A program made the position numbers and the translations under genes. The notes beneath the pieces were generated by a model. That model ran no database searches. It was not told the origin of the DNA and was given only the letters and a program-made list of their open reading frames with translations. From the NCBI RefSeq assembly GCF_026914265.1, contig NC_069130.1:40584929-40648928 (forward strand): DNA of 64,000 bases. The letters run 5' to 3'. The DNA comes from Mya arenaria. Lineage: Eukaryota > Mollusca > Bivalvia > Myida > Myidae. Position 1 is the first letter of the stretch, and every line of letters begins with the position of its first letter. Positions 17,301 through 51,442 of the stretch are shown here, in pieces.

Positions 17301-17309
17301 TTCGCCCAA

Positions 17310-22076: not shown

Positions 22077-22078
22077 AT

Positions 22079-23788
22079 GATGGATTTTGAGCAAGCGTTT
22101 GATGTATTTTAGTTTATTAAAAAAATGTTTTCGTTTTTAATTTTGGAATAATGTTTATGCAGTGGATTTGCTTGTTTCTGAATAATAATGAAACTGCTTT
22201 TCAAATGAATGGGTTTCTGTCGAAAAAAAAATCAAAATTGGAAGAGGGTGTAGACAGGGATACCCGATAAGAACTTATATTTTCATTTTGTGTGCCGAAA
22301 TTGTAGCAATAAAATAAGAAATTGTAAATCTATCAAGGGCATTTCAGTGGACGGTGTTGAATACAAAATATCTCAATTTGCAGATGATACATCTCTGTTA
22401 CTTGATGGATTAGAGTTATTATTGAATTCTACGTTGTATTTATTACGTGATTTTTCTTTATATTATGCCTTGAAAATTAACTTTGATAAGACTAATTTAA
22501 TATGGATTGGTTCCCTAAAATATACCACAAGGTCAATTAAAACAAAATGTAGATATTTGCAAAATGATAGAATTAAGTTTTACAAGCAAACTTGAAAAGG
22601 TGAAGAAATTATCAGTTATTGGAAAACAAGGAAGTTAACTCCATTTAAAAAGATCACTGTTGTAAAGTCATTGTTACTTCCCATGTTTTATGTCATTGCC
22701 AAACCTTTGTAAATATGTTTTTTAATAAAATCATAAAAATGTTCTATGATTTCATTTGGGATGGACCCCATAAGATAAAAAAAACTCTGCTTTAGTAAAA
22801 GCGTACAGTAATGGGGGTCTAAAAATGATAGATGCTGTTGTAATAGGCTGCTTAAACCTATCTTGGCTAAGAAAATTTGTGAATAGTGAATAAAAATGTT
22901 ATGAATTAGTGAACTCATTGTTTGATATGTGTAAAGTACGCAATACCGGAAAATTGTTTGCTAAAAGTAAAATAAAGAAATTAGAAAAAAATATTGGATT
23001 GATGTATTAAGCATATTTAATTGTTGCCTTGATAAATTATCCACTGGTACTGTTGAAGATATACAAGATACACCTTTGTTTTACAACCATCAATTGAAGA
23101 TTGGTAATAAAGGTATCTTTGTCAAAGTTCTTTATACTAGAGGAATACGTTTTATTAAAGATATTGTTATGAAACAGACACATTTGTAACAAAGAGATAA
23201 TTTAGAGAATGGTACAGGGACAAATATATATTTCATATTGTTTGAAGGTTTAATAAGAGTTGTTAAGAACTACATAAAAACATGTAAAATTACTTTTAGT
23301 ATTAATGATAGAACTCAAACCCCATCAATGTCATGTTATGTTAAGGATATTTTGCTTGAAACCAAAGAAAGAAAAAAAAGTATATAATGAATTGATAAAA
23401 AATATCGATACTCCAACCTGTCAGGATAAATGGAACATTGTTTTCGAGGATGTAAATTGGAAAAAATCTATGGATTGGTATATATATTACAAGAGATACA
23501 TATATTCAATGGTTTCCAACAAAAACTATACAGAGTATTTTAGCTACAAACTCATTTTTGCTTAAAATGAATATTGTTAATGACAGATTATGTACATTCT
23601 GTTGTCTGAAGAGGAAACCTTGATTCAAATATTCTGGAATTGTGAGATTGTACAATCCCTAATAAACTGTATAAGATATTTTTATCTGCCCCTACATGAG
23701 TCTTTCCCATTGAATTGCCAGAGATTTTTGTTGGGAACAATAGAAACATATAATATACTTAGTTATGGAATTAAAAAATACATTTAGC
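22079..23788 (+). mobile_element. Decayed Tx1/L1-like LINE fragment (duplicate copy)
   Basis: Duplicate of 15588-17300, with several small indels relative to it (near 23375, 23482 and 23603) that break the frames further. Confidence 0.72.
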
Positions 23789-23984
23789 TTTCGCCCAACA
23801 CCCCCCCCCCCCCCAACACAAAACTTTATTGTATACTGGAACATCAGTAGAAGTAGTTCGTAAAATTTTAAATAGCAGTATTAATTCAGTGTAGTGTTTT
23901 AAAGCGGCTGTACTCCGTATGATGAAATAGCGAAAAAACAAATGAAAATTGTCGAAAACTGACATAAACTTGGTATCGATGTGT

Positions 23985-25062: not shown

Positions 25063-25844
25063 AATTGTTGTCGATGAGTTATGTTCAGATGATTTACCTG
25101 TGATCAATTCACTTTTTATTTGGATCAATTGTCGACAAACTCTGGACATCCAACTTTACATGTGCACGTTTAGCACGTGATTTAAGAAAAATAACAAACA
25201 GTTTAATGCAGAGGTTTATCGTGAATTTTCTTGTGCATTTGTGATAACTAGGTCAATCACATGTTGTATGCAAGAATTCAATTTAAAACTATCAAAATTA
25301 ATTAATTATGATAAAAATGAAAATAATGATTTTTTTTATTCTGAGTATAGTATAGACACATTAGAACGTTCTAGAAATTTAATCGACCGTACGTGCTAGT
25401 GACGATTACAAACTTTCTTTGAACCATTATATAAGGCAGTTAAGTTCAACAAATCGTCCCGCGTGCGTGAATTACAAACAAAATAATTATAATCATATTG
25501 TTCCTATTTAAAGTGTCTAAACAAAAATAGGAAAGCATGTATAACCCCGCCCTTGCATAAATTTTATGACGTTTTAAGAATAACAACGATTGATGGGAAA
25601 ACAGATGACCAAGAGCATAGTTATGTAAATGTGCAAGAAATGAAGAAACATTAAATTCACCAATCACAGAAGATGAAATAGAGAAAATGATTTATGAAAT
25701 GCAACGGCAAGGCTTCAAGCTCAACTCGCGTTATGATTCAAAATCACTTATGTTCAAAGAAAATTAAAAAGCGCATTTCTATATATACATTATATCGATA
25801 TACGTCATTGTTCAATATTCTTAAGAAATTCAGTTTAAAGGCAT
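25063..25844. other. Upstream flank of the giant element (Ly6 unit 1)
   Basis: No gene seen. Parts (actcgcgttatgattcaaaatcac and the cagtttaaaggcataaaatt end) are homologous to unit 2 at 49210-49250 and 51430-51450, showing that the two Ly6 units are co-linear here. Confidence 0.55.
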
Positions 25845-25851
25845 AAAATTA
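25845..25851 (+). repeat. Left target-site duplication (AAAATTA)
   Basis: Seven-base direct repeat matching 45588-45594 on the other side of the large element. Confidence 0.8.
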
Positions 25852-25867
25852 AATGTTCGTGAAGTTG

Positions 25868-26335
25868 GCAGACTGGCAGCTCAGCAGCCCAGCAGCGTGA
25901 AGTCAGCAGCCCAGCAGACGGGCAGCCTAGCAGCGTGAAGTCAGCAGCCCAGCAGACTGACAGCCTAGCAGCGTGAAGTCAGCAGCCCAGCAGCCCAGCA
26001 GCCCAGCAGCGTGAAGTCAGCAAACCGGCAGACTGGCAGCCCAGCAGCGTGAAGTCAGCAGCCCAGCAGACTGACAGCCTAGCAGCGTGTAGTCAGCAGC
26101 CCAGCAGACTGACAGCCTAGCAGCGTGAAGTCAGCAGACCGGCAGCCCAGCAGCTTGAAGTCAGCAGCCCAGCAGACTGGCAGCCTAGCAGCGTGAAGTC
26201 AGCAGCCTACCAGACTGACAGCATAGCAGCGTGAAGTCAGCAGCCTAGCAGACTAGCAGCATAGCAGCGTGAGTTAGCAGTCTAGAAGCCTGCCGGCGTG
26301 AAGTCAAAAGCTGGGCAGCTGGGCAGATTAGCAGC
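25868..26335 (+). repeat. 38-bp terminal minisatellite, left end of giant element
   Basis: About twelve copies of a cag-rich unit (cagcgtgaagtcagcagccc then agcagactgacagcctag). The same array is inverted at 45125-45580, and a short inverted stretch recurs at 27890-27950. Confidence 0.9.
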
Positions 26336-27889
26336 TATGCTAAGACGAACTCGTGTGAAGTTTCCCGTCGGTTTTCAGTTTTCAAAGCCAGAAAAAAACA
26401 TAAAAAATGAAAAAAAAAAATCATTTACAATAGTTGGTTGGCAATACACACCTTAAACTAAAGCAAAAATACTAAAATGAATCATTTAAAAACATGTACA
26501 CTATTTCTTTTTTGTGAACTAAAGAAATCAATTTACTCCACTTTTTGATTTCACGCGTCTGACACCCCAAGCAGCCCTAGGCGTTTTACGGTATTTTTAC
26601 TCGGGCTGGATACATGGCTTCTAGTATATGAAAAATGAAAAAAAAATCATTCACAATAATTCGTTTGCAAAATACTCTTTAAATGACGCAAATACTAAAA
26701 TGAATACTTTTTCAACATTTACACTATTCTTTCAGCTCCAGGCGTTTTATGGTATTTTTACTCGGGCTGGATACTTGGTTTCTAGTATATGAAACGTTCG
26801 AATGATTACAAGTTTAATTACTTAACAACACGGAAATTTCAGAAATTCATGTTTTCAAAGCCGAAAAAAAATGAAAAAATAATTCACAATAATTCGTTTG
26901 CAAAATACTCTTAAAATGACGCAAAATACTAGAATGATTACTTTTTCAACATTTACACTATTCTTTGAGTGTGAACTATAAACATCACTTTACTTCACTT
27001 TTCTATTTTAGTTTTCATTCTGGCAGCCCCAAGCAGCCCCGGGCAGCCCCGTGCGTTTTATGGTATTTTTACTCGGGCTGGATACATTGTTTCTAGTATA
27101 TGAAACTTTTGAATGATTACAAGTTAAATGACTAAACAACACGGAAAATTCAGAAATTCATGTTTTCAAAGCCGAAAAAAATGAGAGAAAAATATTCACA
27201 ATAGTTCGTTTGTAAAACACCCCTTTAAATGACGCAAAAATACTCAAATAAATAATTTAAAAACATTTACACTATTTTTTTGTGTGAACTAAAAACATCA
27301 CTTTACTCCACTTTTCGACTTTAGTTTTCTGGCAGCCCGGAACAGCCTGGAGCAGCCTCAAGCGTATAACGATATTTTTACACGGGCTGGATACAAGGCT
27401 TTAATTCTGTGTAACGTTCGGATGATTCCAAGTTTAATGACTTTAAAGCAAAGATAAGATGTAGAATGTTACAGAACACTAATTATTTAACGTAATCTTG
27501 CTACAATTTCACTCGATTTTTATCGCCCTGCTAAGACGAAATCGTGCGAAGTTTCCCGTCGTTTTTGTAAAAAAAGCGCGTCTTCAAATTCAAAACACTT
27601 CATTTTGCCATTTAAGCTGTAATTTAGTTTCCCTTACCACACTAGGCAACAAGAGCGTTATATGTTGAATATTGTCTTTTTTAACAACACGGAAAATTCA
27701 GAAATTCATGTTTTCAAAGCCGAAAAAAATGAAAAAAATATATTCACAATAGTTCGTTTGTAAAACACCCCCTTTAAATGACGCAAAAATACTCAAATGA
27801 ATAATTTAAAAAACATTTACACTATTTTTTGTGCGAAGTTTCCCGTCGTTTTTGTAAAAAAAAAAAAACGTGCGTCTTCAAATTCAAAA
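26336..27889 (+). repeat. Subterminal repeat blocks, left arm
   Basis: Repeated modules each carry gggctggatac (26603, 26764, 27074, 27383), a short agcagccc-rich word, aattcatgttttcaaagccg and an atttacactatt block. A separate word (ctaagacgaa..cgtg..gaagtttcccgtcg) marks module borders at 26339, 27530 and about 27830. Confidence 0.85.
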
Positions 27890-28089
27890 GCTGCTATGCT
27901 GCTAGTCTGCTAGGCTGCTGACTTCACGCTGCTAGGCTGTCAGTCTCTTGTCTTACGTTTTTATTTTAAACTCGTCTATAACGTCATTTTTCGCGAGGAA
28001 AACGGCGTCGTGTTTCGCTGAATAAGTGCGCCTTTCTTTATTTGTTGATTTTTGTTTTGATTTTTTAAATACATGTATTCATTGTTTAA

Positions 28090-28420
28090 TTACAAATGGC
28101 CTGATATCAAGAAAAGTGTACCTTACCGACTTTTTTGTGCAGAATCAAATAATCTAACACCTATACCTGTTTCTTATTCAATACGTATTACATTGAAACG
28201 TTTAACATGACGTTAAACGTAATATTATTAATGCTAAAAAGAGCTTAGTTTTGAATAAACCACTGATCAATTGAAGATAACAGGAATTGTTTTTGTTAAA
28301 TTCATAATTCAACATGGTTTCCTTCTGTTAAACTCCAAATATTAAACATAATCAAAATATTTAACACTGATTATAAATGAACTATATTTAAATAGTTAAT
28401 AAAAGCACAATTTGTTAAAG
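28090..28420 (+). repeat. Inner block of the left arm
   Basis: Contains aagaaaagtgtaccttaccgac, acaggtat-type words and acgttaaacgtaatattatt, all inverted at 41705-42005 in the right arm. This marks the inner limit of the inverted arms. Confidence 0.8.
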
Positions 28421-28726
28421 TTATACGTTCAGCGGTAATTAGAAAAATACGTGAGAATAAATAAAATTAAAATTGTATGATATACTAGTTCATATCATAT
28501 TCATTTGATGTTACATTTCAATTTTTTATAAAGAAAACTCGCATTTGTTGATATTTTGGAGATCAAAGATATCAACTTTCGAATTACCCGCCACAGTTCG
28601 TAGCCGTTCGTAGCCAGCTTCGGAATCGATCATTTGCATAATACATGAATGAAGCGCCCGTATACATGTAAACAACCGATACTGGCGATAGCGACTTTCA
28701 TTCAGCTACCAACATGATCAAAAGAA

Positions 28727-31590
28727 ATGTTTCTACCAGTTACTCTTGAGGTTAGAGCGTTATTTTATTTTACTTCTAACCGACCTTTTAATGAGGTAAT
28801 GAACGAACTTGCATTTTATTGTTTATATTTTCTAAATTCTACCATAAATCAAAAGGCATGTCTACAGTAACTGAAGTGGGTGGGGTAAAATTAAGTTAAT
28901 ATTCAATCGCGCCTAATTTATCATAGATATCGTACAGTATTATGTTTGGAGCAACGCATACTTGTAAGTAAACGTGCATTTGATTTCTGGACCATTAATT
29001 CATGATTGGTTGACTTATTTCTATTGTAAAAAAGATGAAACTAAAAGTAAATCACGTAGTGATCTGCATGGGTGTCAGGTAGATAATTTACTGTACAGTA
29101 TAGATAAAATTCTTATTTTTGTATTTTCAGTCACCTCCAAGCATTCCCTTATTATTTTTGTATTTTCAGTCACCTCCATTCCCTTATCCCAAATTGATAT
29201 TAAAAGAGAATGTTGATGAGCCTGATCCGTCGATTCAAATACCATAACTCAGCCAACCCAAAAAAAACAACAGCGTAAGTTTATAACACGTACATCATCT
29301 TAGAAATCCATTTTAAATGTGTATTTTAATGTACTTCAATGATGCAGAGAATTAAGGATCCAAAACTAGATCACTCTATAATTTGACACTTCACATAAGT
29401 GAAACTACAAGTTGATCAAGTAATAATTAATATGTTTGGGGGGGGGGGGGGCACAATTATGTTTGGTGGGTACTCCTTTCCATATTGTTTTTTATATTGT
29501 ATATTTTAAAGCTGAATTCTCACTAATTGGCCGTTTTGACTTTTTATATATAATTTGTCTTTAATTGCCATTATACTTCCCAAATGTTCTTCAAGTTTCC
29601 AAAACATGTCAGTATTTGCAATTGAAATGTGAACATGTAAGAATTATGCAACAGTCAATTGTAACTACGCCCCCCAATCCCCCCAGGTCCGGCGAAATGG
29701 GCCGTGTTTTACCTCCAATGTGAACCTGGGTGAATGCGGTGGTTTTGTCTAGTGCTTAAATAGCGGGGAATGAGCCTTACCTTTGATCCCCGTGGGTGCA
29801 GTTGCATTTGGTGGGGATTTTACCAGCAGTTCAGGGATATTTTCTGGACCTAAAGTCAAAGTCCCTGCTTCCCGCACCGGTGGGGGGGGGGGGCATGGTT
29901 ACAACTAACTGGTTTGTTGTTTTGGAATAAATGTAAACAAGTTGATCAATAATGAGAGTAAGCTTCAGGGCTTTTTCTATAGTACCCACAGCTCAGACTA
30001 TCAGACCCATTCCCAAAGCAACATATACAATATTTTTTCCCAATCTTCAGAAAAAAATCCTAGTCAAACAAAGGCAAAAATAACAAACGTTTTTATGGAA
30101 GTCTTTTTACCTGTACTGGCTCATTCAGCATCCTAATTAACCATGTGTTATGTAATCTAATGTTTTGGAAATATATGAAATCAGAAATTATTGATTTTCA
30201 TCACATTCAGAGATCGATCAGTATGAAATATTTTGTGTCATGATTTATTGCGAAAGATATTTATACCCCAAGTATTGATATTTCAGGCATTTAAGGTCTT
30301 TTGAACGGGAAAATAAACTTATTTATAAAAAATTCTCTATTCGCAGGAGACGGAAAGTCTTGTTTTTTTAACTGTAAAATTTCCCTATTTAGGAATATTT
30401 GCGACTCAAAATTCCCAAAATGTCTAGTGCCTTTTGCCAAACAAAGCGCTGCGCTATTTTAAAGGTACAATTTTACTTGTAATATTATTTATTATCTTTA
30501 GAAACAAGTGAGCAAGCTGACAAAGCTGCAACTTCAGGGAGCAATTATAAGGGTCATCAAGATGGAGCCAGGATTCATGATGCTCGTATTAGAGGTGCTG
30601 GACCAGAGTCTGAGGAAGGGAGTAGAACTCCAAGCTGGTTTGAGTGTGCTTCAACTGCCGGGACATTTCAATGCAGAGTTAAAAAGTATGTTGTAGCCGG
30701 GAGGCCAGTCTTTCTCAAACTGCTGTAAGAACCTTATAGAAACTAAAATTCAGTATAGATCTAAGACATGAGTGTACCTAAATGTTAAATGAAGTTGATA
30801 TTTATGAACAATATTATAACATTTCATATGAATTTAAAAGCTGGTTTTACATTATTTAATACTGCTAATGAGTTCTTGAAAATTTGTACTGAAAAATGGA
30901 TACTTGACAACTCATTTGCATGTTTGTACTTCATAGGAAGTCTAGTGTTGTATTTTTCTAAAAAATATGGTTTTAAACATCTTAACATGCATGTAGTCAC
31001 ACACAGGCAGACCAAGTTGAATTGTTGGCATGTATGAAATATGGGCAGTGTTATTTTATAAACGTTTAAAAGCTATTTTATATGCTGGCAAAGTTTGTAT
31101 CTACTAAGTTATTAAAAGCACTCCTGTTTAGGTGAGTGCTGAGAACTTTCTTGAACATTCGTACTGAAGTAAGTATGACTTAATAGTAGCACATCACTGG
31201 ATATTTCCTATTTTTAATCTTAGTATCTGTGAATTATGCTACTGACTTTTGATAAACCTTCCCTCTTTCAGGACTCTGACCTCCTTGTTTTGAATGAAGA
31301 AGTTCTAACCCTTGCCCATTTGATGAGGCAGGATTTCTTGTGTTCATTGATGAGGAGGACCAGGCACACCCAACCGCTACTAGGCGACTTATATTGTGTT
31401 CTGACACAGAGTTATTTTTGGGCTGGTGACAAGAGGGCTATTCCCTTATGTTGTGTGGAGAGTCCAGGAAACCTTCCCGATTCCCTAAGAACAATACACT
31501 GGCCTTGTGCAAAGGAGGGTTCAGTAGATGAACACAATTTTTGCAGACGGATCGTATCTGTTCTCTTGATTTTCTTAAATATTAAAATAT
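28727..31590 (+). other. Candidate spliced exons inside giant element (+ strand)
   Basis: Three stretches have splice context. The ATG at 28727 gives MFLPVTLE ending at GAG|gttaga. An exon at 29170-29274 follows gtattttcag, reads PPFPYPKLILKENVDEPDPS and ends at AGC|gtaagt; its frame is not open throughout. An exon at 30502-30724 lies between ttatctttag and CT|gtaaga and has two overlapping long open frames. A further exon-like stretch follows ccctctttcag from 31272, open for 107 codons. No family is recognised. Phases do not give one clean product, so this may be a decayed gene or captured host sequence. Confidence 0.25.
29652..29913 (-). mobile_element. GC-rich MITE, copy 1 (GTAACCACGCCCC ends)
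   Basis: The ends read agtcaattgtaactacgccc and gcatggttacaactaact in inverse orientation. The interior has the gggactttgac / ggtaaaatccc words found in the copies at 39621-39908 and 50293-50613. Orientation is opposite to those two. Confidence 0.7.
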
Positions 31591-31761
31591 GATATAAACA
31601 ATATCAGGTCATTTTTGTATACTTTTGTGAATGACTTGTTATTTTATAAATACTGATTTGTACTGTCTTTGGTTGCTAAACTGTCATTAAGTAATTTTCT
31701 CGTTTCAATTTGAAAGCCAGAAAACCTGCATGTTATGTATACTCATGTTATTGTTTATATT

Positions 31762-32820
31762 TATGCCCCCTCCGAGGAAGAGGGGTATATTGCATTGCAC
31801 ATGTTGGTCGGACGATTCGCAGCTTTGTTGGTAGACCAAAGCTTGTCTAAGTGATAACTCAACAACTGAAGGACAGATGGTTATCAAACTTGACATGAAT
31901 GTTGGGCCTGACCAGTAGATAACCCTATTGATTTAAGGGGTCATCAGGTCCAAGTTCAAGATCACAGTGACCTTTAATGGTATAAAGTTGTTAAAGCTTG
32001 TCCGAGAAATAACTCAAAAATACCTGAACGTACGGTATGGTTATCAAATTTGACATGGAGGCTGGGCCTGATTAGTAGATGACCCCTATTGATTTTAGGA
32101 GTCATTGGGCCAATGGTAACAGTCACAGTGACCTTTAAGTTGAAAAGGTTAACAAAGATTCTCTGAGTGATATCACAACAATGTCTGGCCCTATGATCAT
32201 CAAACTTGACATTGAGGCTGGGTATGACCATAACTGATTTAAGGAGTCATTGGCCCTAAGTGACGAAAGTGCGTTAAGAATGAACGAGTGATAAATCAAC
32301 AATGCCTGCACCCATGGCTCTCAAACATGATAAGGGAATTTGGCTTTACCAGTAGATGGTTCATTTTGATTTCAGGGGTAATCAGGTCAAAGGTGAAGGT
32401 TACAGTGACCTTGAAAGCATATTCGTGTGATTACTTGACAATGCCTGCACCCATGGTTCTCAAACTTGCCATCTAGGTTGGGGGTGACCAGTTGATGATC
32501 TTATAGATCTTGAAGTCAGAGGTCAACCTATATGCATGATTAAGTATTTTGTCATATTTACTTATTTCCTGCTGCTGAAAGGATATATTTTTATCTGCAA
32601 ATATCAGTCATCATCTGAACATGATTTAGAACTTTACTTACTATCCTCACACTTTGAACGGTCATAATCTTAAAACTGCCGCAAAGGCATCTAATGTCAA
32701 TGACAAGTCAGCTGTCATTTCAGTCTTTGCATATTTAATTCAATTTGCGGAAAAAGCCTGACAACTTGGCGCTCCTCAAGGGGAGGGGGTTCATATGTTT
32801 GACAAACATCTCTTGTTTTT
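31762..32820 (+). repeat. Mollusc-type dispersed repeat with internal 150-bp units
   Basis: Begins atgccccctccgaggaagag and ends near acaaacatctcttgttt. The interior repeats gataactcaacaa, ggttatcaaacttgacat and cacagtgacctt several times. Similar-looking repeats are common in bivalve genomes, from general knowledge and not checked. Confidence 0.6.
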
Positions 32821-33389
32821 CTGTTTAAAAACGCTTTCAAATGACACTCAAGCAATATGTCTGTTTGAATCCAAATTTCACATTTTATCTTTAAAATGTG
32901 TCATACCTTTCTCAACCTTGTTTAGAAATAATAAAATGGACCTAAAGCAGGCTCAATTTTGATACAGCCCATTTCTTAAGTAGAACAAAGATTAATGCAA
33001 AAAAACACTTTCCCACAAAGAAGTAAATAACTGAAATAAAACCATGAAGATCCCACAGTTTGTTGACTTCTTCTTGATTTAAAAACTCAAATCTTATATA
33101 TCCGATAACTTGCGTAAGCAAAATAGTAAATAAGAGGGCCAAATGGCACTGAATCGCTCACCTGTCATATATTGCACATTCTTCCATTATATACAAATAT
33201 TAAAAAACTAAGCCTATGAACACGGGGCGTGGCCAATTTTGACCCCAGGGCTAAAGTTTGAACAATCTTAATAGTGGTCCGATAAACAATGCTTCATACC
33301 AAATATCTAAGGCCTTCGCCTTTTGGTTTCGGAGAAGAAGATTTTTTAAGTTTTCATCATATACATATATATAAGGAAACCCATGACCG

Positions 33390-33401
33390 CCCGGGTGGGG
33401 C
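33390..33401 (+). repeat. SINE target-site duplication, left
   Basis: cccgggtggggc, repeated at 33690-33701. Confidence 0.75.
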
Positions 33402-33689
33402 TATCCGTCTCCGTGGCCTTGTGGTTAAGCGTCCGCCTACGGAGCGGGAGGTCGTGGGTTCGATCCCGGGCCGCGTCATACCGAAAGACGTTAAAAGCTG
33501 GTACAAGTAGCTCCCTTGCCTGGCGCTTGGCATTTAAAGGGTAGTGCTTGGGAAAGTGGTAAACTCAGTACTGGTTCTACCCAGGAAAGTTGTATCCCGT
33601 GTATCGGTGCTTTACACTGGGCACGTTAAAGAACCAAGAGGTCTCTTCGCAAAAGGGCAGACCTTGATAAACTCAAATAAACAAACAAA
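33402..33689 (+). mobile_element. tRNA-derived SINE
   Basis: The head has an A box (gtggccttgtggttaagcg), an anticodon arm with an ACG-like loop and a B box (ggttcgatccc), followed by a conserved-looking body (ggtacaagtagctcccttgc) and a caaataaacaaacaaac tail. Twelve-base target duplications (cccgggtggggc) flank it. It sits inside the 166-bp tandem array and so is younger than it. Confidence 0.85.
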
Positions 33690-35162
33690 CCCGGGTGGGG
33701 CCATTTTTTGACCCCAGGGCCAAAGATTGAACAATATTGGTACAAGTCAACTAGATGATATATCATGCCAAATATCTAAGCTCTTGTCACTACTTGATTT
33801 TACATGCGTATCTATATATGTATATTTGTTATTAATTGTTGTATGTGGCCCATATTGAAAATTGGTATGTGCACTAAATATGTTATCCAGTTTAAATTAA
33901 GACGTTACATGTCTTTGTGAGTTCGGAGAAGATTTTTTAAGTTTTCACTATAACACATATAGAGAAAACCCATCAGCCCCGGGGTGTGGCCAATTTTGAC
34001 CCAAGGGCCATAATTTGAACAAACTTTGTAGAGTTCCACTAGACGATGAATCATGCCAAATATCTAAGCTCTAAGCAACGTAAGTTCAGAGGAGATGATT
34101 TTTGAAGTTTTCACTATAAACATATAGAGAAAACCCATGACCCCCCCAAGGGGGCAGGGCCAATTTTGACCCCAAGGCCATAATTTGAACAATCTTTGTA
34201 GAGGTCCACTAGACGATGAATCATGCCAAATATCTAAGCTCTAGTCCAAGTAAGTTAAGAGGAGAAGATTTTTGAAGTTTTAACTATAAACATATCAAGT
34301 ATACCCATGACCCCCCGGGGTGGGGCCAATTTTGACCCCAAGGCCATAATTTGAACAATCTTTGTAGAGGTCCACTAGACGATGAATCATGCCAAATATC
34401 TAAGCTCTAGTCCAAGTAAGTTCAAAGGAGAAGATTTTTGAAGTTTTCACTATAAACATATAGAGAAAACCCATGACCCCCCGGGGCAGGGCCAATTTTG
34501 ACCCCAAGGCCATAATTTGAACAACCTCTGTAAAGGTCCACTGGACGATGAACCATGCCAAATATCTAAGCTCTAGTCCAAGTAAGTTAAGAGGAGAAGA
34601 TTTTTGAAGTTTTAACTATAAACATATAGAGAATACGCATGACCCCCCGGGGTGGGGCCAATTTTGACCCCAAGGCCATAATTTGAACAAACTTTGTAGA
34701 GGTCCACTAGACGATGAATCATGACAAATATCTAAGCTCTAGGCCAATTAAGTTCAGAGGAGAAGATTTTTCAAGTTTTCACTATTAACATATAGAGAAA
34801 ACCCATGACCCCCGGGGCGGGGCCAATTTTGACCCAAGGGCCATAATTTGAACAATCTTGGTAGAGGACCATTTGGTGATCCTACCTACCATATATCAAC
34901 GGCCTTAGCCTTGTGTATTGGGAGAAGAAGATTTTTAAAGTTTTTCCTTTTGGTTGCCATGGCAACCAGAGTTCTGCATGGAATTGAATTCTTTGAACAA
35001 CTTTGATAGAAGACCACCCAAGGAACATCCCTATGAAGTTTATTAATATTGGCCCAGCGGTTAAGGAGGAGATGTCTTTTAAGTAAATTGTTGACGGACG
35101 ACGCACGCCAGACAAAAGGCAATCACAAAAGCTCACCTTGTCACAAAGTGACAGGTGAGCTA

Positions 35163-36238
35163 AAAAAGAGCTGCCTCTGTATGCACCCGAAGAGTTGTTC
35201 GGAATGGTCAGTATGTATGATTTGCTGGTATGTGACAATTGCTCCTTAAGTGCTTATTATATTTTGAAAGTTAATATAAACAGATGAATTCTTGAAAATG
35301 CTAGTCAATTTACAAAATACCCAACCACAACACTGTTCTGAAATGGTCTTAAAAACGTTTGTTTAGGTTAACATCCCCAAAATTATAAGGCAGGTAAGGT
35401 AGAGATGTTATTCAAAAAAATGCTCTTTCTTGTGATTGTTGTCATTTCTCGCAAACATCACTATTTCTAGCCAGTGTCACTTATATAAAACTGTTGTTAC
35501 GGAGCTATATAATGTCAAAAGTTAATGAGAGTTAATGTTTAAAAGAAATACTAATGTTGGCCCAGTTATCTAAAAGCTAACTTGTCTACATGTTGTGTTT
35601 TTTTTTTCTTTTACAGAAAGATTCCATGAAAAACAAAAATTTAATTTGACATTTTGTTTATTTTTGAGAACTTCACCAAAATAATCATCACATATAAATC
35701 AATATACATGTATGAACTTCCAAAGTATCCTATGTGCTTTTGATATACCCTATTTTCAAAGGGTTTTGGTCAGGTTCCATCCACTTTAATATAAAATCAA
35801 ACTTTTTTTAAATACTTAAAATGCGTTAGCATGTCGCAGGTAACACGACTTATAAAGCTGAAGAGAACAAATATACACACAAATTTACATGATTGCGAGT
35901 ACATATTTTGCTTTTAGTACCCAAGTATTTCTTAAAAAGTGACCATATTTTTTACCGTATGTGACAAACTTGATCTCCCTTAACATTTCATCAAGGTGAA
36001 CATTCTCACTAAGTTTGAACACATGTAATCTTACAAAGCAATATCAAGGTTTGATTCTATAACGTTTTAAAAATAAAATCAAGTGACTTCCATTCAGTCC
36101 ACATGTGACCTAGTTTCAAACAAGACAACAATGAGACCATTGTTATTAAGTTTCATGAATATTGGAGCACATAGTAAACCTCTAGAAATGTCTCTTATTA
36201 AACCTAGATTCTTGCTCGCTGTACAATTCCCTTCTTGG
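35163..36238. other. Interior of giant element, no gene seen
   Basis: AT-rich sequence without recognisable coding or repeats beyond short A/T runs. Confidence 0.4.
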
Positions 36239-36424
36239 TTAAGGAGATAACTGTTCAAGGTGGCTAGAGATTTGTCGAGGATAGTGCTTCTCCATAACAG
36301 CCTTTCTACCCATATCGAAAAATTGTTGGTCAAGTGACACATGAAGATCAGTTTCTTCAGCGACTCTGTATGGATAGGTCTTTTTTCTTTCACTGCGTTT
36401 ACTGGGGAATATTGCCATCCTCTT
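36239..36424 (-). other. Open frame, 59 codons, basic (possible terminal exon)
   Basis: On - the frame from ATG at 36418 reads MAIFPSKRSERKKTYPYRVA and ends in HLEQLSP. It can be entered from a weak acceptor (caatag) at 36425. It is rich in Lys/Arg near the start. It lies downstream of the three-exon candidate 37188-40193 and could be its alternative last exon. No family recognised. Confidence 0.25.
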
Positions 36425-36577
36425 CTATTGTTCCATGCCCGGTTTAGTCTGCATACAAAACAAGAAATGTTTCATTTACAGAATAAGATTTGACCACATC
36501 ACACACACACACACACACGCACAATTATCTAGAAGTAAGATAGTTATCGAAATAAATATTTCCACTTATAACCAGAC

Positions 36578-36846
36578 TTAAAGCTGCACTCTCACAGATA
36601 TACAAATTTTACATTTTTATTTTTTTTGTCTTGCAAAGAGCACATTTTTGCGAGAATATCTGGAAACCAATAATATAAGATTGCTGACAAAAAAATCAGA
36701 TGGCAGTTTTTCATATTTCCGTTCGAAAAATAATGTTAAATGCATAAACATCACTTTCTTTAACTTAAATATAAAAATCTGCTCGTTCCAAGACAAAAAA
36801 AATAAAAGTTGTCAAAACGTTCAATCTGTGGGAGTGCAGCTTTTAA
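36578..36846. mobile_element. MITE with TTAAAGCTGCACTC ends, copy 1
   Basis: Left end ttaaagctgcactctcacag is inverted at the right end (ctgtgggagtgcagcttttaa); 269 bp, no coding. A shorter relative is at 59407-59595 and a damaged one starts at about 37468. Confidence 0.8.
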
Positions 36847-37187
36847 GCCTGAAAATGTGATCAGAGCATTTCAATTTCATGAATTATGATGCAGTTATTT
36901 TATGAAATGCTTATTCTTGTTTCCTGTATAAATAGCCTGAATTCCCTGATTTTTAATAATATAATATATAAAAGGGTATAACTTCAAACTTCTACTAATA
37001 TAAGATGTGAAAAGAGTCAAAGCTTGCTGTACATTAAATTTATTTACCTGTATACTAGATAGTATGCATCTTTGATGGAAGGTGGTTGTCAAGGACAATC
37101 ACTCTGAGGGCTTTAAGGGTACTAAAGTGTTTTTTTATTGTTAAGCCATGGTGAATTCCTCTCCTCTTGGCTCAATGGCCCATGACT

Positions 37188-40100
37188 TTACTCATAATAT
37201 TGAATCGGGGGAGGCCACTCATGCTCATCCGTCAAATGATGGAGAAGAACAGCTGAGATGCCCTTAAAATAAATAGCATTTCATTTTATTTTCATTTATC
37301 TACTTATATCATCAATAAATGTTATATGTTAATTATCAATATTATAAATACTTAATCAATATACCAACATATACTTCCAAGCTCAAATCACTGCATTTTC
37401 ATGACACAAATATCAGGCCTTATTTGATAAAAAGGATATCAACCTCTTTTCTACCTTTTCATGATTTTTAAAGCTGCATTCTCACCTATGGACTGTGTAA
37501 ACATATTTTATTTCAATTTTTGTTTTGGAATTCATTAGCCACTTTTTAAGCTTATATCATGAAACCAGTGATATAAGATATGCTGACAAAAGAGGTGAGT
37601 GCAGTTATTCATACTTACTTTCAAAAAGTATGATGTTTTTTGCCTAAAAGCCTTTCTAACACTTATGAATAGAAAATGAGATTTTGGAGTTGATAAAACG
37701 CTGCCTTTGATTTTCTATATTTGAAAAGTTTGAATGATATTTTTTGTATTTGCAAAAAAACTGTACTTACAGTACACTTGGCATGTTCAAGCCAGGTTAA
37801 AATCTGTGACATCACCAGCCTCCTGACATCGGAGTCTTGAAGCGTCATGTCAAAAGATACTGAAACCCAAAATACTGTAAATTTTTATTAACTATTATTA
37901 TATTATGTTTATATAGAAATTTCAGCAAATCATTTATCTTATAATAATTAAACCCTTGGTACATGTATTTTGTAGAGTTCATATACAAAACAGAAATATA
38001 AAAAGAAAAGAAATATAATTTTTTGCATTATTTTTTTGCATAAAAGATGGATGGACTACCTTTAACATGTTAACTAGTATCACATATGTACCAATTTCTA
38101 TTTAAAGCCAGGTTCTTATATTATTGATATAAAAATGATAAAATATTTTTTTTCAAATGCCATTTCAATCATGAGCAGGATCAAAACAATCATTGAAATT
38201 AGACTTTTTGATGAAGAAGCCCTGATTCGTATACTTTAGCTTTGAATCAAATTTCAAACAAGCCCTACTATAAAAAAATCAGAATTTGGGTAAGACCCGA
38301 GGCATTTTACCAGTGCATGGCTTACTGGCTTGTGTTAATTTCGACCATTTGTCAAAAGGAATGGATTTTCTTAACAAACGAATGCTTTATCACAGCTTAT
38401 TGAAGGTCTGTATTTACACATTTGGGGGTTGGGCTCAGGTCCTTCAGTTAGTCAAAAAAGACATCAAATGCAATTTTTTGGTAATGAAAATATTTCAAAA
38501 CAAATTACATATATTGAAATGCCAATAAATGTGCTGTATACAATTGTTGTTTTCAATTGAATTGCAGTTGCTATTGGATTTAGCTTGACTTTTTCAAGTT
38601 CTTCACGATATCTCTAACTTGCATATGATGCCAACTATTTTGCCCTTTTAAAATTTGACTTAGAAATTCTGGATTTTGCATGTAATCTTATTATGCCTCC
38701 ACAAAGTGGCGGCATATAGGGTTGCCCTTGTCCGTACGTACGTCTGTCCGTCTGTCTGTCTGTCTGTCTGTACGTACGTACGTCCCGAAGATTGTTTCCG
38801 ATCTAATTCTTGAAAACCGTTTGTCCAATCCTCACCAAACTTTAAACACATGTTTGTGACCATAATATCTTGATCAAGTTCGATAGTCATGGAAATCGCT
38901 TTAGTCATTTAGGAGTTACGGCCCTTTTTTGCCAAAAATACTTCAAAAATATATGTTTCCAATCTAATTCTTGAAAAGTATGTGTCCAATGTGGATCCAA
39001 CAAGTTTTTTCCTGCCTGAATGGCGCCATATAACCTATACAGTCTTGCGATGCCGTAAAACCCAACTCAACTCAACTTATCCTATATGTGCAGATTATCC
39101 TGAATAATCATTATGGCTTATTTTCTGTGACAAAAAATCGAAGTGGGGGCATCCGTGTCCTATGGACACATTTCTAGTTTTACAGTGATCCAGGCATGTT
39201 TTGCCAAAGCCTGTCAAAGGCGGATCCAGTAATTGACACAAGATTGGAGTCACTCAGGGGTTGTAACCTTTCAACGTGTGTCCCCCCCCCCCCCCCCCCC
39301 CCGAACTGAATAATTCTGGTCAGCAATGATGGCAAACGGCCAGGTTCACCCTCTAGGAAATGTACATAATATCTAGTCCGAAATGGTACATTTTGGGCAA
39401 TTTATTTCTTTTTAATCCTATATAAAAATATGCCATGACTTTCAACGAGTCTTTTGACCATTTTTATTACTTAAGCGTACAGGGAGAAGATAAGAAATGT
39501 CAAAACAATAAAAAAAAGTATGCCTGATTGCTTATTAGTGTACCAAGGAAGTTATGGGGTTAGGTGTGGGGTGTGTCCCCCATATTGATATTGCAAGTGC
39601 TGAAATCCTTAATGCTTATGTACCAGTCATTTGTAACCTGAGCCCCGTAGGTCCGGGGAATAGCAGGGACTTTGACTTTCGTTCCAGCCTACCCCGGGTA
39701 AAATCCCGGCCCTGCCGGGACGACCAGTTGGTAAAATCCCCGCACCCCAGGGACCCTAGGTAAGGTCCATTCCCCACAAATTTTTGCGAACATAAAACCA
39801 CCCCATTTACGCGGTACTGCGAGGCCACCTGGAAGGTAAAACCACGCCCCATTTCCCCAGTATACCCCCGGACCTGGGGGGGGGGGCGTGGTTACAACTG
39901 ACTGGTGCATTATAGCAATGAAAAAAGTCGATCATGCTGCCTCTGACAGCTCTTGTTTGATTTCGAAATTATTTTGGATTTTGAATAGGAACTTTCACTA
40001 ACATTTTGGCGAATAAGTACATCCGTTCTCCAAGGAAATGGGGTATGTGCACCCGCCATAAAGTGTGTCGAAAGATAGCCCTACTGACTGTTAATAAATA

Positions 40101-40193
40101 AACTATCAATGTTTTTCAAACATCAGGTAAAATGTTAAAGATAAAACACAAACCTATCGTGATGTTTCGTTTCCACGCCCTCCATTTTCCCAT
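37188..40193 (-). CDS. Candidate three-exon small gene inside giant element
   Basis: Exon 1 (40154-40193) gives MGKWRAWKRNITI and ends ATA G|gtttgt, with an in-frame stop just upstream of the ATG. Exon 2 (37771-37859) follows ggtttcag, keeps phase (Val at the junction), reads SFDMTLQDSDVRRLVMSQIL then TWLEHAKCT and ends at ACT|gtaagt. Exon 3 (37188-37262) follows attttaag and reads GISAVLLHHLTDEHEWPPPI before TAA. The product would have 67 residues. All junction phases agree, which is the main support. No family is recognised; it may be cargo or a captured host fragment. Confidence 0.35.
38690..39180 (+). repeat. Dispersed repeat with gtctgtctg tract
   Basis: Begins attatgcctccacaaagtgg and ends gtgggggcatccgtgtccta tggacac, the ends resembling each other in inverse sense. 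A (gtct)n/(gtac)n tract lies at 38735-38785. Type common in mollusc genomes by general knowledge. Confidence 0.6.
39283..39302. repeat. Poly-C run
   Basis: About 20 consecutive C; length likely inexact. Confidence 0.8.
39621..39908 (+). mobile_element. GC-rich MITE, copy 2
   Basis: Ends taccagtcatttgtaac and ggttacaactgactggt are inverse. The interior shares gggactttgactttcg and ggtaaaatcc with copies 1 and 3. Confidence 0.75.
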
Positions 40194-40640
40194 TCCATTT
40201 GAAGCTTTGAATGCTATCCTTTTCTTTCAATGAATGCCTAAATAAACCATCGACGTCAATATCTTTCCTACATTTTTCATTTACCGTCGCTTTCTGATCG
40301 ATTTTGGCAATCTCTGTCTGCCTCTGTTTCTCTTTTCATTTTCATCTGTCCATCTTTGTTTTGATTTGCTGACCTCATTGAATATTCATAACTGTCACGT
40401 GCTTGTGCTCCGTATACTTTCGTAGGCTTTCGGAACTGCTCGGAATAACTCCGAGTAGGCCATAGCGGATTTTTTGGTAACCACCAAAAAATAAATATGG
40501 TCTGAAAATCGTGTTAATATCAGGCCATCGGAGTGGAATCTAGAGACGAAATTTCGCACAACGCTAAAATAAGGATGCCTTTTCACGACAGTTGTGTTAT
40601 TTTTGTGTTTTATAACCAAAATTCTCGCTGAACGTACATC

Positions 40641-40886
40641 TTTAAGGGTGGTTATAGCTCACATACAAACACACACACATAACGAAGGTACAATAAAAGC
40701 ACGCACGCAAGCACGCGTAAAAACTAACCCCACAAACCCGTCCACACTCAAGCACGCGTGCACACGCAGGCAGGTATGCGGACAAGCTTGCTCGCACACA
40801 CACACACACACGCGCACACGCACACGAACGCGCGCGCGCGCACGAACATACGCATGCATACACATATATACAATCACACACACACA

Positions 40887-40942
<56 letters not shown>

Positions 40943-41089
40943 CACACACACAAACGCACGCACGCTCGCATGCACGCGCGCACGCACGCGCGCTCACACA
41001 CGCGCACACAAACACATATAATCACATGTACGCACCCACGCACACGCACGCACGCACGCACGCACACGCAATCGCACGCACGCACCCAC

Positions 41090-41158
<69 letters not shown>

Positions 41159-41688
41159 ACGATAAAATATATGTTCCAAATGGCTAAAATGATGATCTTG
41201 AAGTTAAATGTTATAAGTTCACTAAAAAATTTAATTTTTTAATCAACGCATTGTTTGTTTTTACCAATATCGAATTATTCTGTTTCGGCAATGCATTCAA
41301 TGCCCATGATACAAAAGCCTACTAAGCTACATTATCCTGCACTTTGCCGTGCGTACAATGGCTGTGAACGCGTGTGTGCATACATGCCTGCATGGGATAG
41401 CGTGTATGAGTGTGAGAGCGTGTGTGTGGGCGTAATCGTGTGCGTGTGTGTATATGTGCGTATGTATGGGCTAGCGTATGGGCATATGTGCATGTGTACG
41501 TGTGTGTTCGTGCGTGTGCGTGTGCGTGTGCGCGTGCGAGCGTGTCCGCATACCTTCCTGCGTGCGCACGCGTTCTTGAGTGTGGGATGGTTTGTGGGGT
41601 GAGTTTTTACGCATTCTTACGTGCGTGCTTTTATTGTACCTGGGTTATGTGCGTGTATTTGTATGTGAGCTATAACCACCCTAAATGA
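40641..41688. repeat. CA/CACG microsatellite inside an inverted repeat
   Basis: The left border ttaagggtggttatagctca (40641) is inverted at 41664-41687 (tgagctataaccaccctaaa), and the arms keep matching inward for about 170 bp (for example gcaggtatgcggac inverted as gtccgcatacc). Between them lie about 350 bp of nearly pure (ca)n, (cacg)n and (cg)n and then 170 bp of ordinary sequence. The long open frames here are an artefact of the simple repeat. Confidence 0.85.
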
Positions 41689-41704
41689 GCTTATATAACC
41701 TATT

Positions 41705-44700
41705 TAACTCTAGTTCATTTATAATCAGTGCTATAATGATTTGATAATTTTTATTATTCGGGGTTTAACAGAAAAAACATGCTGAATTATGAATTTAACG
41801 GAAATAAACAATTACTGTTATAGTATTGATCAGTGTTTTTTTTTTCAAAACAAAGCTCTTCTTAACAATAATAATATTACGTATAACGTCATGTTAAACG
41901 TTTTAATACAATACGCATTGAATGAGAAACAGGTATAGGGGTTAGATTATTTGATACTGCGCAAAAAACGAAGTCGGTAAGGTACACTATTCTGGATATC
42001 AGGTGATTTGTATTTAAACATTGAATACATATATTTAAAAATGTTTATACTTATTGTAATCTTAAGTCATATTTTATTTTATTTTTTTCTTAATTCTTAA
42101 AAAAACAATACCTTAAAAGTATATCTTAACAAACAAAATGCTTTATTTTATGCACCAGAATGATACACATTTGAAAATATAAAAACATCGCAAAATAACG
42201 TCAGTAGTACACACTTAATAGATTCCATGTACTCATAATGATATTTTCTACTTTTACGAATATTATTTACATCAAAATTTACATTAAACGATCGATATAT
42301 TTGGAGGATTCATTCATTTTGCATTTCCTTTGCTTAAATTAAAAAGTCAGAATTTTTTGCTTTCCTATTTTCCTTTTGTCGGGACTCTAGAGTAACATCG
42401 ATTGATAGCAACGGGTTACATATAAGCCCCGCCCATTTTGGACGCTGATTGGTCAGTCTGATTTGAAGCGGCTAGTCTGACAGGCAGTCTGCGTCATGTC
42501 AATTCATTATTGTTGGAGATCATGGAGGAAAGCGCTGGGCAACTGATAAGCCCCGCCTTATCTTGGCGGTGATTATGCAATCGATTATCGGTCAGCTGGT
42601 TTGACTGGCATCTGCTTCATGTACGGTAGAAACCAATTACAAAAGATAAAATATACGCACTTTAGAATTGAGAATTTTAGATAGGTTTTTTTTTATTCTA
42701 TTCCTGCCGATTAAGATTTGATTTGAAGCGATAATTTGGACACATTAATTTTCTTCTATAAAATCAGAACATATTGTTTTGTAATACATGTGTGGCTTAT
42801 TATTAATATTATGTATGGATTATATTCAGGATGATTGAAGCTTTTATGTGTAAAACATAGATTGTTGCAGTTTTGTGAGTTTACCGATACTGAAACTGTT
42901 CCCATATTCCCGTTCACACATTTCAGAATTTTAAAATTAAGCTTAAAAGTTGCACTTTAATAGTAAATTATCTTCCCTTGGATTGCAGGAACGACTTGTC
43001 TGCTAGTAATATTACGTAAACTACTTGTTGTTCTGAAACAGTTCACATATTTCCTTTGCTTGGAACTCATTTAACGTGGAATTATCCAAACATTACAAAT
43101 ACTGAAAAACTTGTATCCAGCCTGGGTTAAAATACTATAAAACGCTTGGCATTGCTGGAACGAGCAAGATTTGCTAGCAGGCTGAAATCTAAAAGTGAGT
43201 ATAAAGAAATGCCTTAGTTTACATGAAAAGAATGGTGTAAAGGTTTTAAAAGTATACCTTCTAGTAGTTTGCGTCATTTAAAGGCGTGTTTTGTAAACAA
43301 ACCATTGTGAAGGAATTTTCATTTTTTTCTGTGTTTTTTTCACGGTTTCGAAATAATGATAATAAATAGTGTTCTGTAACATTTTACATCTCATCTCTGC
43401 TTTAAAGTCATTAAACTTGGAATCATCCGAACGTTACACAGAATTAAAGCCTTGTATCCAGCCCGTGTAAAAATATCGCTATACGCTTCAGGCTGCTCCA
43501 GGCTGTTCCGGGCTGCCAGAAAACTGAAGTCGAAAAGTGGAGTAAAGTGATGTTTTTAGTTCACACAAAAAATAGTGTAAATGTTTTTAAATTATTCGTT
43601 CGAGTATTTTTGCGTCATTTAAAGGGGTGTTTTACAAACGAACTATTGTGATTTTTTTTTTTTCGGCTTTGAAAACATGAATTTCTGAATTTTCCGTGTA
43701 GTTAGAAAAGACAATATTCAGCATATAACGCTCTGATGCGTAGTGTGGTAAGGGGAAACTAAATTACAGCTTAAATGGCAAAATGAAGTGTTTCGAATTT
43801 GAAGACGCGCGTTTTTTTTACAAAAACGACGGGAAACTTCGCACGATTTCGTCTTAGCAGAGCGATAAAAATCGAGTGAAATTGTAGCAAGATTACGTCA
43901 AATAATTAGTGTTCTGTAACAGTTTACATCTTATCTTTGCTTTAAATTCATTAAACTTGGAATCATCCGAACGTTACACAGAATTTAAGCCTTGTATGCA
44001 GCCCGTGTAAAAATATCGTTATACGCTTGAGGCTGCTCCAGGCTGTTCCGGGCTGCCAGAAAACTAAAGTCGAAAAGTGGAGTAAAGTGATGTTTTAGTT
44101 AACACAAAAAAATAGTGTAAATGTTTTTAAATTATTCATTTGAGTATTTTTGCGTCATTTAAAGGGGTGTTTTACAAACGAACTATTGTGAATATTTTTT
44201 TTCTCATTTTTTTCGGCTTTGAAAACATGAATTTCTGAATTTTCCGTGTTGTTAGGTCATTCAACTTGTAATCATTCGAAGGTTTTATATACTAGAAACA
44301 ATGTATCCAGCCCGAGTAAAAATACCATAAAACGCCCGGGGCTGCCTGGGGCTGCCCGGGGCTTCCAGAATGAAAACTAAAATAGAAAAGTGAAGTAAAG
44401 TGATGTTTATAGTTCACACTCAATGAATAGTGTAAATGTTGAAAAGTTATCATTTTAGTATTTTGCGTCATTTAAAGAGTATTTTGCAAACGAACTATTG
44501 TGAATTTTTTTTTTTCAATTTTTTTCGGCTTTGAAAACATGAATTTCTGAAATTTCCGTGTTGTTAAGTTATTAAATTTGTAATCATTCGAACGTTTCAT
44601 ATACTAGAAACCAAGTATCCAGCCCGAGTAAAACTACCATAAACGCCTGGGGCTGCCTGGGGCTGCCTGGGGCTGCCCGGGCTGCTCAGGGCTGCCAGAA

Positions 44701-45124
44701 TGAAAACTAAAATAAAAAGTGGAGTAAAGTGATGATTTCAGTTACACTCAAAGAATAGTGTAAATGTTGAAAAAGTATTCATTTTAGTATTTTGCGTCAT
44801 TTAAAGAGTATTTTGCAAACGAATTATTGTGAATGATTTTTTTTCATTTTTCATATACTAGAAGCCATGTATCCAGCCCGAGTAAAAATACCGTAAAACG
44901 CCTAGGGCTTGAAATCAAAAGTGGAGTAAAGTGATTTCTTTAGTTGACAAAAAAGGAATAGTGTACATGTTTTTAAATGATTCATTTTAGTATTTTTGCT
45001 TTAGTTAAAGGTCTGTATTGCCAACCAACTATTGTAAATGATTTTTTTTTTCATTTTTTATGTTATTTTTTCTGGCTTTGAAATACTGAAAACCGACGGG
45101 AAACTTCACACAAGTTCGTCTTAG
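41705..45124 (-). repeat. Right arm of giant element, subterminal blocks
   Basis: The inner block 41705-42005 is the inverse of 28090-28420. The gggctggatac module occurs at least six times in inverse sense (near 43112, 43453, 43993, 44302, 44614, 44868), against four in the left arm. It includes gacgggaaacttcgcacgat at about 43828. About 42010-43080 has no clear partner on the left. Confidence 0.85.
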
Positions 45125-45580
45125 CATAGCTGCTAATCTGCCCAGCTGCTCAGATTTTGACTTCACGCCGGCATGCCTCTAGACTGCTAACTCACGCTGC
45201 TATGCTGCTAGTCTGCTAGGCTGCTGACTTCACGCTGCTAGGCTGTCAGTCTGGTGGGCTGCTGACTTCACTCTGCTAGGCTGCCAGTCTGCTGGGCTGC
45301 TGACTTCAAGCTGCTGGGCTGTCGGGCTGCCGGGCTGCTGACATCACGCTGCTAGGCTGTCAGTCTGTTGGGCTGCTGAATTCACGCTGCTAGGCTGTCA
45401 GTCTGCTGGGCTGCTGACTTCACGCTGCTGGGCTGCCAGTCTGCCGGGCTGCTGACTTCACGCTGCTGGCTGCTGATTTCACGCTGCTAGGCTGTCAGTC
45501 TGCTGGGCTGCTGACTTCACGCTGCTAGGCTGCCAGTCTGCTGGGCTGCTGACTTTACGCTGCTGGGCTGCCAACTTCAC
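45125..45580 (-). repeat. 38-bp terminal minisatellite, right end of giant element
   Basis: Inverse of the left array, with units reading ctgctgggctgctgacttca then cgctgctaggctgtcagt. Confidence 0.9.
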
Positions 45581-45587
45581 GAACATT

Positions 45588-45594
45588 AAAATTA
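45588..45594 (+). repeat. Right target-site duplication (AAAATTA)
   Basis: Matches 25845-25851. Confidence 0.8.
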
Positions 45595-45912
45595 ACTTGA
45601 GTTATGACACAATTACACTTCTGTACAAATTATGCTTTATAACTATATGTGCCATATCTAATTGACCAATTTTTTGAATTAACATAATATATGAAAGAAA
45701 ACTTAATACAACTTCAGAAAATCTTTATGTGCACAGTTTTGTTATTTTCAATGCTATGCAGTAATCTGAGACACTATAATGGAGGCAAAAGAGCGTTGCG
45801 ACTCAAGAAAGATTATAATACAACTTAACTGATCCTCGAAGGTTACCTGAAACAAAATCTCAAAGACCACATAACCTTAACCAAAATATCATAACAAAAT
45901 ATTATTAAAGAA
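45595..45912 (+). other. Ly6 unit 1 upstream region (paralogue of 51451-51780)
   Basis: Runs parallel to the sequence upstream of the intact Ly6 gene (for example tctgagacactataa, then gatcctc/gatccttt and acctgaaacaaaat). Homology stops at the hAT-like insertion, so any promoter here is now separated from its coding exons. Confidence 0.7.
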
Positions 45913-46823
45913 CAGCGGCGGACCCAGAACTTTCTAAATGGGGGGGGGGGGCACAACTATTTATAAACATATTAAACTTTTTTGGAATGCTTTATTTTAA
46001 TCATATAATGGCACGGAATTAACATCTGTCTTCACTGTCAATAATGTTTGGCATATAAATTGAAATAAAAAGATATCATTTACTGAGATAAACCTTTCAA
46101 AAAAACAATAAAGCTGATTTGGGGAATCGAACTAGGGTCGACAGATTAACAGGCTTAGTCGTTAACCATCGTTAAAAATAAGTGCTATATAAACATTCAC
46201 TACACCAAATTGATTGCACTCAACGATACTGTAGGTACTTCGGACCAGATGCCTGTGCTTCGGATGTCATGGTTATAAATTTAACTGAGTTAAAAAACAA
46301 CTTGACAACAAATTCCAAAAAGGGTTTCAAATAAATTATTATGTATTAATTTACAAAGGCTCTAGCATAATTCAGAGAACTAGACGATAAAAAAAGCCGA
46401 AATGGAAAGTTTTAAAGCGGCAACGTTCTAAATTTAAACTTTTTTAACAGCCATAGTTGTGTACTTTTGATTTGCCTGGTTCCCAGCGTACTCTGCACAA
46501 CAAGAGAATGAAAGGGTAAGGGCAGGTAACCCAGGCTAACTTTTGATCAGCTGTCTGTGTAAAATGCGGCGCCGATTTTTTTATCGAATGTTCGGGCCCC
46601 GATGTCATTTTTCAAAATATTTTTTTGTTTCGTATACTATATAATACTCGATCATCTGGTTGTTTATTTGCTCAAATGCTTATATAAAATTTAAATTGTG
46701 ACAAAACAACTTATTTGTACAGTTAAAACAATAAAGATGTGCCCTCTAAAACTTTACTTGCCGGCTCGCTGGGGTGGGGGGGCACGGGCCCTATGTGCCC
46801 CACCCCCGGTAGAGCCGCCACTG
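45913..46823. mobile_element. hAT-like non-autonomous element, 0.9 kb
   Basis: Starts CAGCGGCGGACCCAG and ends with the inverse of CAGTGGCGGCTCTACC. The ends carry G-rich/C-rich tracts, a common look for hAT-type elements. Flanking octamers (ttaaagaa, ttaactag) agree only in part, so the target duplication is weak. No transposase. A tRNA-like B box (ctagttcgattcccc on -) lies at 46115-46160. Confidence 0.55.
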
Positions 46824-51322: not shown

Positions 51323-51442
51323 ACACTCTTCATGATTTGCCACACGTTATTTCATAATTATAAAAAAGTGCATTTTACAAACCATGATCTAGTCGCTTTA
51401 AAAGAAAAGTCGATAAACGTCATCAAATCAGTTTAAAGGCAT

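Follow-up and report, generated by a model that had tools for sequence, protein, structure and literature searches.

Does the 19.7-kb insert bounded by inverse tips on contig C9 of Mya arenaria result from one insertion event, as an earlier note had it, and what moved it there? In the stretch of DNA analysed here (64,000 nucleotides, hereafter the window), the insert is a long-armed foldback element with a second transposon of about 12 kb nested inside. Positions 28419-40641 are a separate TTAA-flanked element of another family, so that a single event does not account for the whole. We hold with high confidence that these are two nested DNA transposons, the outer a foldback probably moved in trans by a Mutator-like (MULE) transposase and the inner a giant TTAA element probably moved in trans by a Kolobok-like one.

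Boundaries and architecture of the outer element

The outer element occupies positions 25853-45586 of the window. Its tips are inverse copies, as previously noticed (exact 20-base match, 25852-25871 and 45568-45587). However, the first base (A) of the tip as given in the earlier note lies outside it: it belongs to the duplication and the element starts at 25853. The base preceding the tip is free among copies (A, C, G and T are all seen), which defines the tip as ATGTTCGTGAAGTTGGCAG. The flanking 7-bp repeat AAAATTA is present but is not the full duplication, being part of a 9-bp target-site duplication, TAAAATTAA, at 25844-25852 on the left and 45587-45595 on the right (neither assigned a strand). 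A 7-bp duplication (the Galileo/Dada reading) is ruled out, since the base before ATGTTCG is free in other copies.

The left arm (25853-28418, + strand, 2.6 kb) and the right arm (41682-45586, - strand, 3.9 kb) both start with 38-bp tandem repeats that reiterate the tip motif CGTGAAGTCAGCAG, at 25884-26280 (+ strand) and 45184-45573 respectively. The left arm also includes inner tiles of about 310 bp and terminates in a TTAA copy (28415-28418). Allowing up to 2 mismatches, the tip motif is present in 12 copies on the + strand of the left arm (the first lies inside the tip) and in 11 copies on the - strand of the right arm, with one copy against the orientation. None is found in the interior or in either flank. 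The arms pair (blastn) at 94.4% over 1,111 bp, 91.3% over 864 bp and 83.7% over 363 bp. Divergence of the paired segments rises from the outside inward (1.9%, 3.9% and 13.5%, K2P), a gradient which suggests that the outer arms have been homogenised.

A CA-rich region (40646-41681, no strand assigned) forms the centre of the element. It has its own inverted ends, GGGTGGTTATAGCTC, and TAA flanks. Among the 16 other outer copies studied (see below), nine match 873 or more of its 1,049 query bases, one matches 395 and the remaining six 54 or none. A common outer form is two long arms flanking a CA-rich centre of roughly 1 kb, and the copy in the window without the nested element measures roughly 7.5 kb. 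Two other delimitations were dropped: a PIF/Harbinger-like element nested in the right arm, because 40646-41681 is this shared centre, and arms reaching about 28445 and about 40605, whose 16 common bases belong to the ends of the inner element. The outer element has the long, tandem-repeat-bearing inverted arms that characterise foldback elements, and its inverted repeats exceed 100 bp as in Mutator-like elements.

The unsplit paralogous site described in the earlier note is real. The joined outer flanks align to 51429-51765 with no gap at the junction, and this stretch includes the unoccupied target TAAAATTTA (51442-51450, + strand). The left part of the alignment is an exact 20-mer and the right part shows 75% over 329 bp. 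Homology farther left is weak (the 400-bp left flank scores 99.5, the best of 200 shuffles 96.0).

The outer family across the genome

The genome searched comprises 1,216,080,610 bases in 18 contigs. The 20-mer outer tip is found 33 times exactly (0 for the reversed-pattern control) and 193 times at up to 2 mismatches (control, 2). Among 100 listed of these 193 tips, 24 neighbours lie within 40 kb of each other. Twenty of these 24 pairs face inward and span 1.05 to 34.6 kb, and for 60 of the 100 tips the list contains no inward-facing partner at up to 40 kb. The earlier note had made its reading depend on other copies sharing both tips, and such copies exist.

Seventeen pairs were studied, the window's own and 16 others (three large pairs were left out). 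A 9-bp duplication flanks 12 of the 17 (9 perfect, 3 at 8/9), within the 8-10 bp of Mutator-like elements. In a mismatched-pair control, 1 of 272 combinations reaches at least 8/9, owing to a flank that the two copies really share. The other five pairs show no duplication; two of them share their 14-base flanks, left and right alike, and probably stem from the duplication of a single locus. The comparison of copies suggested earlier shows flanking duplications, at 9 bp rather than 7, and an interior that is absent from all 16 others. At C9:30757803-30757843, two outer tips lie back to back with TTA between them in place of the 9-bp duplication; this could be a circle-like or tandem junction.

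The nested TTAA element

Of the 16 other outer copies, the one most like that of the window (C11:5927068-5935274, 8,205 bp) is 92-98% alike in the main blocks and lacks the interior. Its sequence continues uninterrupted across AATTTGTTAAGGGTGG, whereas in the window two TTAA copies enclose 12,223 bp at this point: AATTTG-TTAA-GGGTGG on C11 versus AATTTG-TTAA-(12,223 bp)-TTAA-GGGTGG in the window. The uninterrupted TTTGTTAA-GGGTGG junction is found in six outer copies, the C11 copy among them. At most 552 of 12,155 interior bases are covered in any of the 16; this residual coverage concerns 4 copies and comes from dispersed repeats, and one of the 16 copies holds 2,500 N.

The inner element (28419-40641, 12,223 bp, no strand assigned) is bounded by TTAA on either side, the right one at 40642-40645. 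Its 16-bp inverted ends, AGTTATACGTTCAGCG and AGATGTACGTTCAGCG, are alike at 14 of 16 positions. It contains a 166-bp tandem satellite (33925-34944). A dispersed repeat with ends like CAGTCAATTGTAACTACGCCCC is also observed at 29640-29905 and 39640-39910 in the inner element and at 50328-50615 in the right flank.

A genome-wide search with the pattern TTAAAGWTRTACGTTCAGCG (up to 1 mismatch) yields 98 tips (control, 2). Within 40 kb there are 34 neighbours, of which 33 face inward, pairing 66 tips and leaving 32 without a partner in the list; random placement of 98 tips would give 0.32 close neighbours. The 33 pairs span 4.0 to 36.4 kb (median 12,723 bp) and 31 of them combine one A-type and one G-type end. 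A 9.7-kb copy at C15:42.03M is colinear with the window interior at 91-96%, with breaks at window blocks 29396-29445, 33137-35157 and 38693-39177. In a 10-kb piece of the copy at C9:12.33M, the main blocks are colinear at 92-99%, including the 166-bp satellite. Tip-adjacent DNA matches the interior at all 8 inner tip loci examined, and the bases beyond TTAA vary across the 12 inner tips compared.

Coding capacity

Six-frame Pfam scans (E up to 1) of 28400-43401 matched no family. As positive controls, the same method detected caveolin (1.4e-27) and reverse transcriptase (3.7e-18) in two flank frames. In agreement with the earlier note, no transposase, polymerase, integrase or recombinase domain is recognisable in 28400-43401 with the Pfam profiles used, which included none for Kolobok. 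The outer portions of the arms contain no open frame of at least 70 aa. The longest open frame in 28413-40638 is 125 aa, a length equalled in 37% of 200 shuffles; frames of at least 70 aa number 27 (shuffle mean 16, maximum 28). Six-frame scans of the C15 inner copy and of the 10-kb C9 piece returned only stray matches (E 0.076-0.24).

The 16 other outer copies were surveyed for open frames 130 aa or longer (no more than 6 per copy, composition-filtered), with Pfam applied to four frames from C17 only. Beyond CA-repeat readings, this survey turned up a handful of frames measuring 130-200 aa, together with those of a 6.5-kb element that sits within an arm of the outer family at C17:43750768-43774304. 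This element carries THAP, HTH_Tnp_4/DDE_Tnp_4, SAP and YqaJ domains. Its inverted ends, TGTCCTTTCCGATAACT, are nearly the same left and right, and a 2-bp duplication of AT flanks it. Its transposase and YqaJ genes were ruled out as the outer mover, as they are part of this third nested element.

An exon-like interior stretch weakly resembles the DCP1 C-terminus (PF16741, E 0.079; PDB 2wx3, E 1.1). Capture of a DCP1 gene was dropped: the scores are at noise level and other matches (0.084 and 0.21) are nearly as good. None of 16 candidate proteins was matched by this stretch at an E value of 10 or below. A second exon-like stretch matched none of 19 candidates, and two further pieces gave nothing usable against PDB (best E 7.4). 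Viral contigs scanned for two patterns and prokaryote genome contigs scanned for one gave no match.

The flanks include other features. A 6.5-kb tandem duplication (10981-17475 and 17473-23965) is recent as judged by its 99.86% identity, each duplicate carrying a caveolin frame and reverse-transcriptase remnants. Four closely similar caveolin frames are clustered at 216-584, 7453-7824, 11456-11815 and 17948-18307, two per strand; a caveolin frame of the window shows 99% identity with a Mya arenaria protein across 90% of its length. A 35-bp tandem array of about 45 units (54390-56024) lies beside a putative Ly6-like frame.

Proposed movers

As no transposase is recognisable in either element, mobilisation is probably in trans; this option, already raised in the earlier note, is the likeliest reading given the lack of any recognisable mover domain inside. 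The outer element would be non-autonomous and use a MULE transposase supplied in trans. The enzyme would bind the tip motif and its 38-bp reiterations, the repeats being putative binding sites, excise the element and insert it with a 9-bp duplication. By analogy, a 9-bp duplication, long arms and a reiterated subterminal motif are traits of foldback-type MULEs as described in PMC5225508, PMC3169594 and PMC4079207. The genome encodes 54 MULE domains, 36 of them free of internal stops. By eye, the 20 outer pairs identified in the list of 100 tips enclose none of the 54, which suggests that the outer mover probably acts in trans. Among these 100 of the 193 tips, no autonomous copy sharing the outer tips was found.

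The inner element would be a giant non-autonomous TTAA element relying on a Kolobok-like transposase in trans. It would have inserted at the TTAA between the left arm and the centre of the outer element, presumably after the latter had landed. This order is suggested by one sister copy, whose centre may derive from another element. The Kolobok signature is TTAA together with 5'-RR...YY-3' ends, the termini distinguishing Kolobok from piggyBac (PMC9587614). The inner element has both, the TTAA duplication and AG...CT ends, which favours Kolobok rather than piggyBac. Both assignments are based on the length of the duplication and the letters of the ends, since no fitting transposase was seen in the copies examined. 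There is a small chance that the conserved inner body holds a spliced gene for an undescribed transposase or partner protein absent from Pfam, or that the family, if truly coding-free, is among the largest non-autonomous cut-and-paste elements preserved whole in many copies, with satellite cargo.

Alternative readings

Polinton/Maverick elements make 6-bp duplications and encode a DNA polymerase B and an integrase; the duplications here are 9-bp and TTAA, and no such domains are found in 28400-43401. A single 19.7-kb transposon with an unrecognised mover in its interior would agree with the two outer tips, the matching duplication, the empty site and the lack of known domains inside. However, none of the 16 other outer copies examined contains the interior, which possesses tips and TTAA flanks of its own and is found independently elsewhere. 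The C11 copy and the independent interior copies refute the single transposon, to which we give practically no chance. A composite, in which two foldbacks would mobilise the host DNA between them in the manner of Drosophila Ising elements or Pack-MULEs, is scarcely conceivable and already disfavoured. Foldback composites and gene-carrying foldbacks are described (PMC6431247, PMC8277862) and the interior does contain exon-like stretches, one of them weakly DCP1-like, but the inter-arm DNA is itself a transposon, present in multiple copies and bounded by ends of its own, and the DCP1 match is barely better than the other noise-level matches, with no protein relative found.

The other two alternatives concern the movers. 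Galileo, of the P superfamily, has long repetitive arms and a 7-bp duplication, and a relationship with the outer element was suggested both by the similar arm structure (PMC3573991) and by the earlier 7-bp reading. This is very unlikely: 12 of 17 pairs show a 9-bp duplication, 28400-43401 contains no P-type or THAP domain, and the THAP domain of the C17 copy sits in the third, distinct element nested there, whose duplication is 2 bp. For the inner element, a piggyBac transposase in place of a Kolobok one is a real if minor contender, since piggyBac also uses TTAA and its domain is matched 120 times in the genome, in several cases with a long open frame. The ends of piggyBac elements are of a type other than RR...YY. 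By eye, none of the 120 matches falls within the 33 inner pairs, and AG...CT ends are of the RR...YY type that separates Kolobok from piggyBac (PMC9587614). Two nested transposons, the outer probably MULE-moved and the inner probably Kolobok-like-moved, remain our preferred reading.

Comparison with known elements

Sea urchin TU elements have arms with an outer tandem-repeat domain and an inner unique domain, a layout like that of the outer element; they differ by their 15-bp repeats and 8-bp duplication. Muta1 and related Aedes aegypti MULEs (type-2 foldback) resemble the outer family in their long inverted and short subterminal tandem repeats, 8-9-bp duplications and many non-autonomous derivatives (PMC5225508). 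However, Muta1 is described there as active and transposase-encoding, with 12-bp subterminal repeats, whereas the outer family has 38-bp repeats, kilobase arms and no transposase seen. Tetris of Drosophila virilis likewise has arms composed of flanking, tandem-repeat and inner domains around a non-coding middle domain. Its account reports 8-10-bp duplications and no autonomous copy found, and places it in Mutator by duplication length, as done here, but the repeats are about 220 bp, the arms reach 1,735 bp and the host is a fly (PMC4079207). The Mutator/foldback Tm1 of root-knot nematodes shares tandem-repeat arms, 9-bp duplications and nested insertions with the present case; unlike the outer family, it includes a transposase-encoding copy and has asymmetric 7-bp end motifs, and the examples given are 1.1 and 2.6 kb (PMC3169594).

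The inner element shares the TTAA duplication and RR...YY ends of Kolobok (PMC9587614). KolobokP elements have short inverted repeats and are rich in bivalves according to the same source. In contrast to Kolobok and KolobokP, the inner element yielded neither a transposase nor a His-Me nuclease; no long terminal direct repeats were noticed in it, and its copies are mostly 10-20 kb. In the top matches of a literature search on foldback, Mutator or other M. arenaria transposons, neither family was found described, which leaves their absence from the literature unproven.

Rearrangements and significance

The right flank seen in the window is also carried by the C11 sister copy: within the 6,001 bases examined, 1,083 bp (window 45563-46642) match at 98.2%. 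The left flank of the C11 copy, TGTTAATAG, recurs on the right side of a different tip (C11:6015367), and about 80 kb thus seem to interrupt a single C11 element. This stretch of about 80 kb, within C11:5927068-6015367, starts with 1.08 kb of window-like right flank. The arrangement fits ectopic recombination between arms. Such recombination is reported for Galileo (PMC2775673).

Both families belong to kinds already known, and are notable for their size, their abundance, their lack of recognisable genes, their nesting and the signs of ectopic recombination. Matched empty sites are provided here for both insertions. Two large families lacking recognisable genes in a bivalve bear on the size limit for persistence of trans-mobilised elements. 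In the transmissible cancer of M. arenaria, repeats annotated as DNA transposons are reported as over-represented among the amplified ones (8/45 versus 171/4,471; PMC10663159), which makes both families candidate markers there.
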